Of a stretch of 64,000 nt of DNA, positions 12,013 to 32,442 are shown one piece after another. Below the pieces are notes generated by a model. It did no database searches, was not told the DNA's origin, and saw only the letters and a list, made by a program, of their open reading frames with translations. The translations under genes and the position numbers were made by a program. Source of the DNA: Candidatus Pullichristensenella avicola (GTDB lineage Bacteria; Bacillota; Clostridia; Christensenellales; Aristaeellaceae); contig DVIA01000028.1 of NCBI GenBank assembly GCA_018711655.1, positions 1-64,000 on the forward strand. Direction: 5' to 3'. Within the stretch, counting starts at the first letter, position 1, and the number at the start of each line of letters is the position of its first letter.

Positions 12013-12843
12013 TCACACCACCGTTCTGTCTGCGCGCCGCGTCTGCGCGCCCTCCGCCGCCCCGACGATGGGCGGGGCCAGCGCCCGCACGCCGCCGGGC
12101 ATCTTTCCCGGATAGACCGCGACCCACATGTCCGGCGACTTGAGAAAGCCGTTTCCATAATCCACCAGGCACAGTTCCGGCCGGAAACAGTTCAGACGGC
12201 CCCGTCCGCCCAGCGCCCCGTAGCCCACCTGACGAAAGCCGGGGGGCGCGTCGCCGGGGGGCAGGGCGTCGTAACCGGCGGGCAGCACGTCGGAAAGCAC
12301 GCCGCGCTCGCAGATGAGCACCGGCAGGCCGCTGAGCGGCTCGCGCAGGCGGTTCCCAGTGTCGATCAGCGCCAGAAAGCGCGCTTCGCCGCCGCCGGCG
12401 CTGAGGAATACGCGCACTTCCCAGGTGACCAGCCGCCGCCGGCGGTAAGCGGTCGTCGCCGTCAGCGCCGCCGCGCCGCAGAGCGCCCCCAACGCGAACG
12501 CGGGCGTGCCCGGAACGGAAAACAGGCGCATGGCCATGAACTGCATACCGCCCAGGAACACGCCGCCGGCCAGGATCGCCAGCCCGCCCGATACCGCCGC
12601 GCGCGGCGAATCCACGCGCAAAGCGACGGCTGCCAGAAGCGTACATACGATCGGCAGCATCCACACCGCGCCCAGGAAACGCAGGCGCGGCAATTGGGCC
12701 AGTACCGCGTAAAGCGCGCCCAGCGCCGAGGCCACGCATACGCGGCGCCAACGCACCCGGCCAAGGCTGCGCGCCACGATGGCTGCGGCGAGAAAGTCCA
12801 TGCAGAAGTTGGTGAGAAAGAAGCCCTCCACGCTCACGGCCAT
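12013..12843 (-). CDS. spoIIGA: Sigma-E processing peptidase SpoIIGA
   Basis: This 276-residue protein has five hydrophobic segments in its first 140 residues, from [17 protein letters not shown] onward. A cytoplasmic aspartic-protease-like domain follows, with the active-site motif [14 protein letters not shown] (about residues 160-173). It cleaves pro-SigE at the sporulation septum. The pro-sigE gene follows after 13 bp. gagaggtga lies ahead of the ATG. It is somewhat shorter than the Bacillus protein but contains all the expected parts. Confidence 0.93.
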
Positions 12844-12860
12844 GCGATCACCTCTCCGGC

Positions 12861-12866
12861 ATTATA
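12861..12866 (-). promoter_or_regulatory. -10 element of the spoIIGA-sigE promoter
   Basis: A perfect TATAAT on the minus strand lies 18 bp upstream of the spoIIGA start. No good -35 is present at 16-18 bp, which fits an activated promoter of the Spo0A-dependent spoIIG type. A partial 0A-box-like word, CGTCGAA (minus strand, 12926-12920), lies about 60 bp further upstream. Confidence 0.45.
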
Positions 12867-13222
12867 CAGGGATGGGGCGGACAATGCCTGTGAAAAATGT
12901 CGCGCCTTACCGTGAATCATTCGACGCATCTGCATCCAATCGCGCCGGTTCGCGCAAAAAAGCGACAAACCTCGCCGTTTGCAGTTGCCGCTTGGGCGGC
13001 GATCGCGTCGGTTTTTGCGGCCGACGCCCCGCCCACAGGCGCGCCGGAAGCATACAAAGCAGAGAGGTAAAGCGGAAAAGAGGGCGACGACCCGGAGTTT
13101 GGATGGAAGCCGGAGAAGCGTCCGCTTCGTCGCAAAATTGCGGCCGTGGCGTGACCATGGTCGAAGAAATGCGATTTTTTAGCACGAGTTTTGGCGGCGG
13201 CGCATAGCATGCAGGGGGAGGG
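12867..13222. other. Intergenic region between spoIIGA and ylmC/ymxH
   Basis: These 356 bp separate divergent sporulation genes. Apart from the spoIIGA -10 region and a possible 0A-box at 12920-12926, I see no gene, RNA or repeat. The open frames here lack starts and similarity. Confidence 0.5.
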
Positions 13223-29444: not shown

Positions 29445-29487
29445 AAACGCACAAACAGGCCGGGGGAACAAGCCCCGGCCTGCGTTT
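29445..29487. terminator. Bidirectional terminator between ribU and udk
   Basis: The 10-bp stem caggccgggg/ccccggcctg (29456-29465 with 29473-29482) is extended by aaacgca/tgcgttt outside. T-rich sequence follows on both strands. It lies just after the ribU stop and touches the udk stop at 29486-29488. Confidence 0.8.
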
Positions 29488-30103
29488 ATGCTTCCGGCTG
29501 TACCATGCCGGAATTGATATAGAAGGCGAGTATATCCACGATGCGGGCGTTTTTGCCGCCACGGGCGACGATGAGGTCCGCATATTCCACATAGTTGCGT
29601 ATGTAGCGCTCGAACATCGGCTTGACCGTTTCCAGATACTGCCGGGCGACGCTGTCCACATGGCGGGCGCGCTCGACGATGTCGCGCTGCACGCGCCGCA
29701 GAAGGCAAATGTCCGGATCGACCTGGATGAATATTTTGAAATCCATCAAATCGCGCACGGCGGGATCGTAGAACACATGAATGCCCTCGAGCAACACAAC
29801 GTCGGTGGGGTAGATCAATTCCTCGGAATCGCACCGGCGGTGCAGTTTGTAATCGTAGCCCTTGCGCGTAATCGGCCGGCCGGCGCGCAACGCTTCAAGG
29901 TCGGCGCGCAGGGCTTCGTGCTCAAAGGCCTGCGGTTCGTCGTAGTTGATGCGCTCGCGCTGTGCAAAGTCCATATCCGGATGGTCTCTGTAGTAGGAGT
30001 CCTGCTTAAGCAGCACGCAGGGGTTGCGCAATCTGCGCGCCAGTTCGTCTGCAAGCGTAGATTTTCCGCTGCCGCTCGCCCCGCATATTCCGATGATCAG
30101 CAT
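29486..30103 (-). CDS. udk: Uridine kinase
   Basis: The 205-residue P-loop kinase phosphorylates uridine and cytidine in pyrimidine salvage. It has Walker A GICGASGSGKST (residues 5-16), the substrate region KQDSYYRDHPDMDF, YDEPQAFEH and the VVLLEGIHVFYD block. The lid region has RRVQRDIVERARHVDSVARQ. It is 50 bp downstream of the Spo0A-like gene and may share its transcript. ATG 30103 follows aaaggcgggg. Confidence 0.93.
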   Translation of the reverse strand: MLIIGICGASGSGKSTLADELARRLRNPCVLLKQDSYYRDHPDMDFAQRERINYDEPQAFEHEALRADLEALRAGRPITRKGYDYKLHRRCDSEELIYPTDVVLLEGIHVFYDPAVRDLMDFKIFIQVDPDICLLRRVQRDIVERARHVDSVARQYLETVKPMFERYIRNYVEYADLIVARGGKNARIVDILAFYINSGMVQPEA

Positions 30104-30153
30104 TTGCACCCCGCCTTTCCTGTGCACTATGATAGCACAGGCCGGCGCGGATT

Positions 30154-30903
30154 TCAAGCGGAAAGGACCCCGTGGCCTTCGCTTTCTTCGCGCAGGCGTT
30201 GCAGCGCCCGGGCAAGGAACTGACGATTGCTCAGCGCGGCAGCCCCGTCGCCGTCGGCAGATCGCGCGCGGCGGATGGCGGTGCGTATGTTGCGCTCCAC
30301 GCTTTCCGGCGTGGTGGAAAGTGCCTGCGCGATTTGCGGATAGAGATTGCGGCGCATGTTGCGCAAAAGGCGCTCGTTTTCGCTCAGGCGGTAGAGCGCT
30401 TCGGCCAGGCAGGCAAAGCCGAACAGGCGCGGCACGATGCCTTCGCGCATGAGGGTCTGGCGGATGCGCGCCGTCGGCGAGGGCGCGCCTTCGCCCGCCT
30501 CCAGGGCGCGCTGCTCCTCCAGCATGCGCCGTTTGACGCGCGTGGTGCCCACTACGCATTCGTGGAGATGCTCCAGCGGCACCGGTTTGGAAAGGAACAT
30601 GTCCGCGCCGACGTCCCTGCTCAGGCGCAGGGCCGCTTCGCTCAAAAACGACGTGCAGACGATCAGGGCCTGCTGCGTGGAAATGGCGCGCAATGTTCGC
30701 AAAAGCGTCAACGCATAGCAGCTTCGCTGCGCCAGGCTCAAAACGATGCAATCGGGCCGTGTTCGCGCGATTTGCGGCAACGCCTGCGCGGCGTCGGCAA
30801 CATATCCGACAACTTCCACGTCGCGCGTGGCGGACAGGTATTCCGCCGTGCGTTCCAGGTAGCAAAGATCAATGTCGATGAGAAACAGTCGAACCTTTTT
30901 CAT
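30154..30903 (-). CDS. Spo0A-like transcription factor with a pseudo-receiver domain
   Basis: The 249-residue protein has a receiver-like N-terminal domain and a C-terminal Spo0A DNA-binding domain: IRQTLMREGIVPRLFGFACL, YPQIAQALSTTPESVERNIR, RTAIRRARS. In the receiver, the position of Spo0A Asp56 is Ser56 (DCIVLSLAQRS), so phosphorylation there is impossible. The acidic pocket is reduced to LIDID; the switch Thr (VCTSF) and Lys (LSKP) remain. The output helix aligns with the Spo0A recognition helix RVERAIRHAIE. ATG 30903 is set by the aaagga spacing. It may be a paralogue or a constitutive/ligand-controlled form; whether a true Spo0A exists elsewhere is unknown. Confidence 0.85.
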   Translation of the reverse strand: MKKVRLFLIDIDLCYLERTAEYLSATRDVEVVGYVADAAQALPQIARTRPDCIVLSLAQRSCYALTLLRTLRAISTQQALIVCTSFLSEAALRLSRDVGADMFLSKPVPLEHLHECVVGTTRVKRRMLEEQRALEAGEGAPSPTARIRQTLMREGIVPRLFGFACLAEALYRLSENERLLRNMRRNLYPQIAQALSTTPESVERNIRTAIRRARSADGDGAAALSNRQFLARALQRLREESEGHGVLSA

Positions 30904-30972
30904 GTGCGCCATTCCTTTCCTATACTGCATTCGCTTCTAATGTAGCACATTTAAGCGCTCAATGCGTGTATA

Positions 30973-31000
30973 ATTATACCATGGCGCGGAGTGTAGTCAA
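30973..31000 (-). promoter_or_regulatory. Promoter for the Spo0A-like gene
   Basis: On the minus strand TTGACT (31000-30995) and TATAAT (30978-30973) are 16 bp apart, about 70 bp upstream of the start. The -10 sits in a palindrome, gtataattatac (30968-30979). Confidence 0.65.
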
Positions 31001-31089: not shown

Positions 31090-32070
31090 TTATGCTTCTT
31101 GTGCGATCAAAATTCCGGAAATGGCTTCGGCAAGGGGTTGCATGGCGTTGAGCGCTTCCACCAGCGTATTTCGGTTGTTGCCAACTTCGACCAGGATGGC
31201 ATAGACGCCGACATGCTGGTTGTAGCGGTTGGTCTTGACCAGCACGTCTCGGCAGATGCCGGGCGTCGCGGCGTTGAGGGCGTCGGTCAGGGCGCATGCG
31301 AAGGCATAGTTCTCGGCAAAATGGGGCTTGACGTCGAAGTTTTCGCCTTCGCCAATGAGCATCATCAGTTTTGCATAGTCCACGCCGTCGGCGCGCAGCA
31401 CATTCTCGCCCATGCCCTCCACATAGGCGTCGCGGTGCAGGTCGATGTAAAGATCGAAGGGCTCGTCGTAGGAAAGCAGCGTCTGTTCCGAGCGCGCATA
31501 GGCGGTGGAGAGATCGTCCAGCTCATGGTCGGTCGTGTCGTGAACGACTTCGCAGCCGCGCTCGCGCAAAAGCTGCGCCAGCTCTGCGCCGACGCGCACC
31601 ACGCTATGCTGCGCGTCGGCGGTGCGCCATGCCTCGAGGGCGACGTAGGGGTCGTCCGCCGCCTGTTCGTAGGCCTCATGCGTGTGCGTGTGATAGATCA
31701 GCACGCGCGGCGCGCTGCTGGCGGCGATATCCACTTCGCCGGCCGGATCCAGTTGAAGCGGCGGAACGGTCTGATCCGTGTGCTCGTTTTCGGGCGCAGG
31801 GGTGGCTTGTCCACGCTCGTCAGCTTTTTCGTCCTCGTCCACCACACTGATTTCGATTCCGCCAGAAAGCGGAGCGGCAAGGACCGCCAACGCGGCCCTC
31901 GCCTCCTCTTCCTGCGCCTCGCTTTTGACCAGATCGCCGCCGACGGGGGTTGTGGCAGCGTCGCCTGATGCAAAAAACCGAAGCGCCAGCAGACATACCA
32001 CCAGCGCCAGCGCTACAACCGCCGCGCCCAGCAAAAGCCGCGAACCTTTGATGACCCGAAAGCGTACCAT
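31090..32070 (-). CDS. spoIIP: Stage II sporulation protein P
   Basis: The 326-residue protein has one N-terminal membrane segment (about 12-34, LLLGAAVVALALVVCLLALR), an acidic linker and the SpoIIP domain beginning RVLIYHTHTHEAY. With SpoIID and SpoIIM it hydrolyses peptidoglycan during engulfment, as an amidase and endopeptidase. His residues of HTHTHE and the DLHRDAY block match the zinc-enzyme core. ATG 32070 is preferred to ATG 32076 for spacing to ggaggagg. In many spore formers it lies next to gpr; here it is about 30 kb away. Confidence 0.93.
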   Translation of the reverse strand: MVRFRVIKGSRLLLGAAVVALALVVCLLALRFFASGDAATTPVGGDLVKSEAQEEEARAALAVLAAPLSGGIEISVVDEDEKADERGQATPAPENEHTDQTVPPLQLDPAGEVDIAASSAPRVLIYHTHTHEAYEQAADDPYVALEAWRTADAQHSVVRVGAELAQLLRERGCEVVHDTTDHELDDLSTAYARSEQTLLSYDEPFDLYIDLHRDAYVEGMGENVLRADGVDYAKLMMLIGEGENFDVKPHFAENYAFACALTDALNAATPGICRDVLVKTNRYNQHVGVYAILVEVGNNRNTLVEALNAMQPLAEAISGILIAQEA

Positions 32071-32402
32071 GCGCATTCCTCCTCCGCATAACTCTATTCG
32101 CATGGAGGAGCGTTTATGAAACCAGGGCCGCGCGCAGAAGAGGGGGAGCAGGCCGCCGGTTGCGCGCGGTCTATGGATATGAACATCTCCGCGCGCTCGA
32201 ATCAAGGCGGACGCGGCAGGAACGGCGGGGAATGCGGTTCTCGGCTGAATGCGCGCGCCGGAAATGGCGCATGACGCGCCGGAGTGAATATGGCGCCGCA
32301 TCGGCGCGCGGCCGTCGCTTGCGCAGATCGCCCTTTTGCAAAAGCGACGCGGAAGCGCGCCGCGAATCGCCACCGCAGAGAAACGCTTTAGACGCGCGAA
32401 AA
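32071..32402. other. Intergenic region between spoIIP and the rsmI cluster
   Basis: About 330 bp hold no recognisable gene. On the minus strand this is the spoIIP promoter region; I could not assign a convincing sigma-E or sigma-F site. Confidence 0.45.
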
Positions 32403-32429
32403 CAAAAATGGCGACGCCGGGCGTCGCCA
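32403..32429 (-). terminator. Terminator of the trpS-to-rsmI cluster
   Basis: The 8-bp stem tggcgacg/cgtcgcca (32409-32416 with 32422-32429) is followed on the minus strand by atttttgtttt. It lies 14 bp past the rsmI stop. Confidence 0.75.
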
Positions 32430-32442
32430 GGAACGGCAAGCG

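Follow-up and report, generated by a model that had tools for sequence, protein, structure and literature searches.

The Locus and Its Genes

The window, a stretch of 64,000 nucleotides (positions 1 to 64,000 of contig DVIA01000028.1, assembly GCA_018711655.1) from Candidatus Pullichristensenella avicola, carries a gene for a 249-aa Spo0A-type protein, designated here as C. The genus is placed by NCBI in Clostridia incertae sedis. The gene lies between spoIIP, which was named from its VLIYHTHTHEAY motif, and a udk-type kinase gene, which was named from its P-loop sequence. The features of the locus, in window positions, were as follows:

31090..32439, minus strand: spoIIP, upstream neighbor of C (coordinates of the listed ORF, start codon uncertain)
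30973..31000, minus strand: sigA-type promoter of C, TTGACT-16-TATAAT (11/12)
30936..30954, no strand assigned: inverted repeat TCTAATG-N5-CATTAGA between the -10 element and the ribosome binding site, candidate operator of C
30154..30903, minus strand: gene of the C-type Spo0A paralog (ATG at 30903, stop at 30154)
30736..30738, minus strand: codon 56 of C, AGC (Ser), the phospho-aspartate position according to alignments
30129..30157, minus strand: promoter-like site for udk, TTGAAA-17-TATCAT, at the end of the C gene
29486..30103, minus strand: udk-type kinase gene, downstream neighbor of C

The C protein consisted of a pseudo-receiver (residues 1-120), a linker and a Spo0A_C-type DNA-binding domain (residues 147-240). 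The receiver matched Pfam Response_reg (PF00072) at 36.4 bits (cut-off 30.2). The DNA-binding end matched Pfam Spo0A_C (PF08769) at 58.3 bits (cut-off 25), covering only profile positions 1-68 of 104, and this agreed with an earlier note on the same DNA, which had assigned the C-terminal domain to the Spo0A type. Against the NCBIfam Spo0A equivalog TIGR02875, C scored 85.9 bits, well under the cut-off of 200; the canonical Spo0A of the same genome scored 292.8 bits. C is a paralog of Spo0A, not an ortholog, and its receiver counts as an aspartate-less pseudo-receiver by the definition in PMC12632262, where a pseudo-receiver is a PF00072 domain missing any one of five residues. The protein at the locus on DVGE01000060.1 of Candidatus Pullichristensenella stercoripullorum shared 68% identity with the C protein of the window.

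Receiver Active Site

Ser56 of C was placed at the phosphorylation site by three approaches. It stood opposite the phospho-Asp of the Spo0A receiver 1dz3 in a phmmer alignment and in the phospho-Asp column, together with B. subtilis Spo0A, in an alignment of 144 proteins. An AlphaFold model of moderate quality (mean pLDDT 68.9, pTM 0.59, three sequences in the alignment) had a receiver fold with Ser56 at the end of strand 3; because of this quality the C-terminal half of the model was not interpreted in detail. The structural matches of the model included phosphorylated Spo0A 1qmp (TM 0.83-0.88, target-normalized) and the Spo0A receiver 5wq0. The replacement of the phosphorylated Asp by Ser56 claimed in the earlier note was borne out by all three placements, and no structural alignment put a conserved Asp at the site. 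Its description of a reduced acidic pocket also held, since D10 of the acidic pair was kept and the second acid was replaced by I11. Thr84 and Lys106 of the active site were intact, and the aromatic residue at K-3 (Phe103) and P107 were also kept. The C receiver was shown to lack the Asp, with no normal phosphoryl acceptance at site 56; as had been argued before, such a protein, an additional member of the Spo0A family in which Asp phosphorylation is impossible, could not be switched by the normal phosphorelay.

Among the seven species of the genus, Asp56 was lost in six, and site 56 was variable. Ser was encoded by AGC in the window and G122, Gly by GGC in G102, GGA in G140, GGG in G005 and GGT in G052, and Asp by GAT in G080. 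With Ser shared by the sister species G122 and Gly encoded in four others, a sequencing error at codon 56 was ruled out. The loss of Asp was conserved (6/7) and the Ser itself was not (2/7). Ser as a conserved new phospho-site was considered and found unsupported, as Gly was commoner in the genus. The simplest path to the codons seen would be Asp to Gly to Ser through single-base steps.

In the family alignment, site 56 was Asp in all 43 A sequences (the canonical Spo0A), and among the 19 C sequences it was Asp in 11, Gly in 4, Ser in 2 and Glu in 2. Asp losses recurred across the C tree. Lys108 (B. subtilis numbering) was present in 19/19 C sequences and Asp10 in all 18 that were readable there. 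Most C orthologs beyond the genus retained Asp56, Thr and Lys, and phosphorylation may therefore matter in them.

Spo0A Paralogs in the Genus, Family and Order

Three Spo0A_C proteins were found in the genome of the window. They were the canonical Spo0A (A, contig C3), with a complete active site (DD/D56/T/K), a degenerate copy (B, contig C33) located between spoIVB and deoB with the receiver residues EP/S/R/R, and C. The same number of Spo0A_C genes was present in each of the 7 genus genomes. Of 150 genomes from the wider family, 80 carried Spo0A_C genes, often two to four each, and in the order at least one was found in 108 of 121 genomes. C was encountered only in genomes with other Spo0A_C genes.

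The presence of the canonical Spo0A, which the earlier note had proposed to look for, fits its suggestion that C is a second, extra member of the Spo0A family. It also disposes of the suggestion that sporulation is governed by C alone, under some new control; this reading and that of a sequencing error at Ser56 are both extremely improbable. The note had missed the B copy in the spoIVB locus, the conservation of the paralog set, the inconstancy of Ser56 and the alteration of the DNA-binding domain.

B (L082 8765-9526, contig C33) had lost nearly the whole receiver active site; its sigH-type promoter was retained, as was a C-terminal motif of high conservation (Q..F..T.D..RGKPT). B-type copies adjoining spoIVB were also seen elsewhere in the order, in families other than this one. 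The active site was still complete in some of them (G150, G164), and in those genomes the other full-length Spo0A copy was not adjacent to spoIVB; this linkage outside the family rests on 20 regions with wide flanks. The spoIVB-linked copy looks old, with a receiver that would have decayed unevenly, and this is offered as a lead.

Two further groups of genomes were rich in Spo0A_C matches. G025, G148 and G207 had 7-9 matches each, and some of these ORFs were short enough for the DNA-binding domain alone. The very small genomes of the order in family f25 (0.8-1.2 Mb) had 2-5 matches, and some of the frames concerned were only about 130-140 aa long.

Synteny, Phylogeny and Selection

The order spoIIP-C-udk was kept inside and outside the genus wherever the flanks were readable. 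The C sequences (n = 19) formed a clade with support of 100/97 in a tree from which column 56 was excluded, and with support of 98 in a larger tree. In contig C47 of G052 (L090 1-4054), canonical spo0A, spoIIP and C stood in one row, followed by udk. The position of canonical A directly upstream of spoIIP and C would suit, and does not prove, an origin of C by local duplication. In an order-wide profile search with the C alignment, canonical Spo0A ranked first, and the result is therefore no proof that C is missing beyond the family. A scan of genome contigs reached just two close relatives and two distant receivers.

Between near species of the genus, dN/dS (Nei-Gojobori) was about 0.15-0.3 for C, 0.06-0.15 for A and about 0.2-0.3 for B; as dS was high and near saturation for several pairs, these values show constraint only. 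The selection estimates for the C receiver and C-terminal domain were 0.18 and 0.45 for the window and G005, and 0.16 and 0.57 for the window and G080. The receiver of C was often as constrained as the C-terminal domain or more so, and in B the relation was reversed. The faster divergence of the C-terminal domain in several genus pairs suggests that the DNA-binding end is loosely constrained or shifting in specificity.

That C is a decaying duplicate of no important function, which lost its Asp by drift, would agree with the variability of site 56 (Ser, Gly and Asp within one genus), with the repeated Asp losses on the tree and with the faster evolution of C than of A. Against this, the genus copies of C read without stop codons or frameshifts (that of G122 was split over two contigs), dN/dS was well under 1, and promoter, palindrome and synteny were conserved. 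A pseudogene reading was not favored in view of this purifying selection, and relaxed constraint is an improbable explanation. C was shown to be a synteny-conserved, selected, aspartate-less paralog of Spo0A, not a decaying copy.

DNA-Binding Domain

In the recognition helix of C (B. subtilis numbering), E213 and R217 were present in 19/19 sequences and R214 in 18/19. The flanking residues S210, R211 and H218 of B. subtilis were mostly replaced; R211 was less affected beyond the genus, with Arg in 9/19. The stretch that follows the recognition helix and leads to the last helix (B. subtilis 231-243) had gaps in every copy from the genus and was largely missing across the clade, with positions 234-243 gapped in 18-19 of the 19 sequences.

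Hatt and Youngman reportedly found in 1998 that residues of about 227-240 of B. subtilis Spo0A are needed for sigA-dependent activation. The missing loop after the recognition helix suggests that C would act as a repressor or competitor and not as an activator. With the loop deleted and the flanks of the recognition helix changed, binding of C to ordinary 0A boxes cannot be assumed, and with R211 and H218 replaced C may have no affinity for 0A boxes.

C might instead work by protein contact, through mixed dimers with A or through binding of the kinases and phosphatases of A by the kept receiver surface, the DNA-binding end being secondary. The better conservation of the C receiver than of the C-terminal domain in several genus pairs points in this direction, as do the receiver coupling residues Thr84, Lys106 and Phe103 (the K-3 aromatic; PMC12632262) kept in C. 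The invariant E213 and R217 and the near-invariant R214 over 19 sequences point to DNA contact, and a role by protein contact is considered rather unlikely.

Promoters and Candidate Operators

The sigA-type promoter of C was near consensus in 6/7 genus species and weaker in G052 (TTGTAT, TATA-T). A sigA-type site with at most 1 mismatch was found upstream of 56% of C genes, compared with about 1% of shuffles; the controls for this and the other promoter motifs were mononucleotide shuffles. The inverted repeat downstream of the promoter had 2 mismatches in the window and was perfect in G122. Five species without the Asp (G000, G122, G102, G140, and G005) had it beside the C promoter with 0-2 mismatches, and it was not found at the C promoter of G052 or of G080, the species that kept Asp. 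In 4 of the 5 genomes searched it was the sole match; G140 had one extra match with two mismatches. The palindrome could instead form a hairpin in the 5'UTR or be the operator of another regulator. The promoter-like site of udk was conserved in the genus, and C is probably monocistronic.

The upstream motifs of B and A were labeled after the consensus patterns of sigH and sigE promoters. Upstream of B, a sigH-type motif (GCAGGAWTT...GWMGAAT) was found with at most 2 mismatches in 78% of cases, compared with 7% of shuffles. In this genus (L083, L090-L095), A was preceded by a conserved GCATATT-14-CATATA-like pair resembling a sigE promoter, which was unexpected for a sporulation initiator; with at most 2 mismatches the pair occurred in 27% in the family, compared with 1% of shuffles.

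Exact 0A boxes (core TGTCGAA) numbered six in the window compared with 7.6 expected by chance, so this count was uninformative. Upstream of spoIIGA (window 12843-12970, minus strand), GCGTCGAA and GTTTGTCGC lay near a TATAAT, as in a Spo0A-dependent sigA promoter, and the arrangement was similar in G122. Among the spoIIGA upstream regions only those of the window and G122 aligned well. Doubtful start codons impaired the genus-wide alignments upstream of spoIIGA and spoIIE, which thus support no statement on 0A boxes.

The growth-type promoter of C, the palindromic layout at that promoter, unlike tandem 0A boxes, and the recognition-helix flanks unlike those of Spo0A would also suit a regulator, constitutive or controlled by a ligand, that recognizes DNA sites of its own and has a regulon outside sporulation, for example in nucleotide salvage, as udk is adjacent. 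However, C was linked to spoIIP wherever the upstream side was readable, it was found only alongside other Spo0A_C genes, and the udk gene had a promoter-like site of its own, so that its linkage need not mean regulation. This alternative deserves some weight and appears doubtful.

Proposed Role of C

The reading we prefer, with a probability of about 0.42 and based on sequence comparison, is that C may be a growth-phase, phosphorylation-independent Spo0A paralog that acts as a repressor or competitor and is controlled through its abundance. As a lineage-specific third Spo0A paralog, C would stand outside phosphorelay control. It would be made during vegetative growth from the sigA-type promoter, would be active without phosphorylation and would contact DNA through its modified Spo0A_C domain, repressing or competing rather than activating. 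Its activity would be set either by its own amount, with the palindrome serving for autoregulation, or by a partner. In the cell, the probable outcome would be that early sporulation genes, or other 0A-like sites, are damped or gated in growth. Since Asp56, Thr and Lys persist in most orthologs from other genera, the ancestral role may have been something other than repression.

The earlier note had suggested a constitutive or ligand-controlled member, or an antagonist competing for 0A boxes. A constitutive or antagonistic role is compatible with everything seen; that such an antagonist would bind ordinary 0A boxes cannot be taken for granted.

A wider arrangement, which we regard as fairly unlikely, is a staged set of paralogs with different promoters. 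C would serve in growth (sigA-type promoter) and B at the onset of sporulation (sigH-type promoter, spoIVB locus), with the phosphorylatable A located elsewhere and carrying the sigE-like motif in the genus. If this were true, onset would be driven wholly or partly by phosphorylation-independent relatives of Spo0A, and phosphorylated Spo0A would come into play at a later stage or in the mother cell.

Comparison with Known Systems

Spo0A is the switch that starts spore formation, and it is treated as a single phosphorylation-switched gate. The spo0A gene is also used as a sporulation marker in metagenomes (PMC11536998). A large group of uncultured gut Clostridia has a conserved set of Spo0A paralogs, two of which have receivers that cannot be phosphorylated; counting spo0A matches can therefore mislead, and so can the assumption of one phosphorelay-fed regulator in these bacteria. 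The open-licence papers searched contained no description of Spo0A paralogs that have lost their phosphosites and form a conserved set on the chromosome.

C had the same order of receiver and Spo0A_C domain as Spo0A (TIGR02875; B. subtilis; PDB 1qmp for the receiver, 1lq1/1fc3 for the DNA-binding domain) and a similar length, and it shared D10, T84, K106 and P107 of the receiver and E213, R214 and R217 of the recognition helix. It differed in the absence of the phospho-Asp, the second acid and the loop joining the recognition helix to the last helix, in its score (85.9 against a cut-off of 200), in its location at spoIIP-udk and not at spoIVB, and in its sigA-type promoter. Like C, the B paralog (spoIVB-B-deoB) combined Spo0A_C with a degenerate receiver and had Ser at the site in the window genome. 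However, B formed a clade separate from C, had also lost the T and K in the window genome and, unlike C, had a full C-terminal domain with a conserved motif of its own and a sigH-type promoter.

Gut phages encode receiver-less Spo0A homologs that are truncated to the DNA-binding domain (PMC10294663). These are likewise Spo0A_C proteins outside phosphorelay control, whereas C is full length, chromosomal and syntenic. Among receivers at large, about 2.0% of PF00072 domains lack the D (PMC12632262), so the receiver feature of C is by itself uncommon and not new. As in those aspartate-less receivers, C lacked the D and one residue of the DD pair and retained the Thr, the Lys and the K-3 aromatic; its effector is Spo0A_C, and that review makes no mention of Spo0A (PMC12632262). 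The control of pseudo-receivers was called a mystery in the same recent review (PMC12632262), and the natural aspartate-less Spo0A proteins of these gut Clostridia provide material for asking how pseudo-receivers are controlled.
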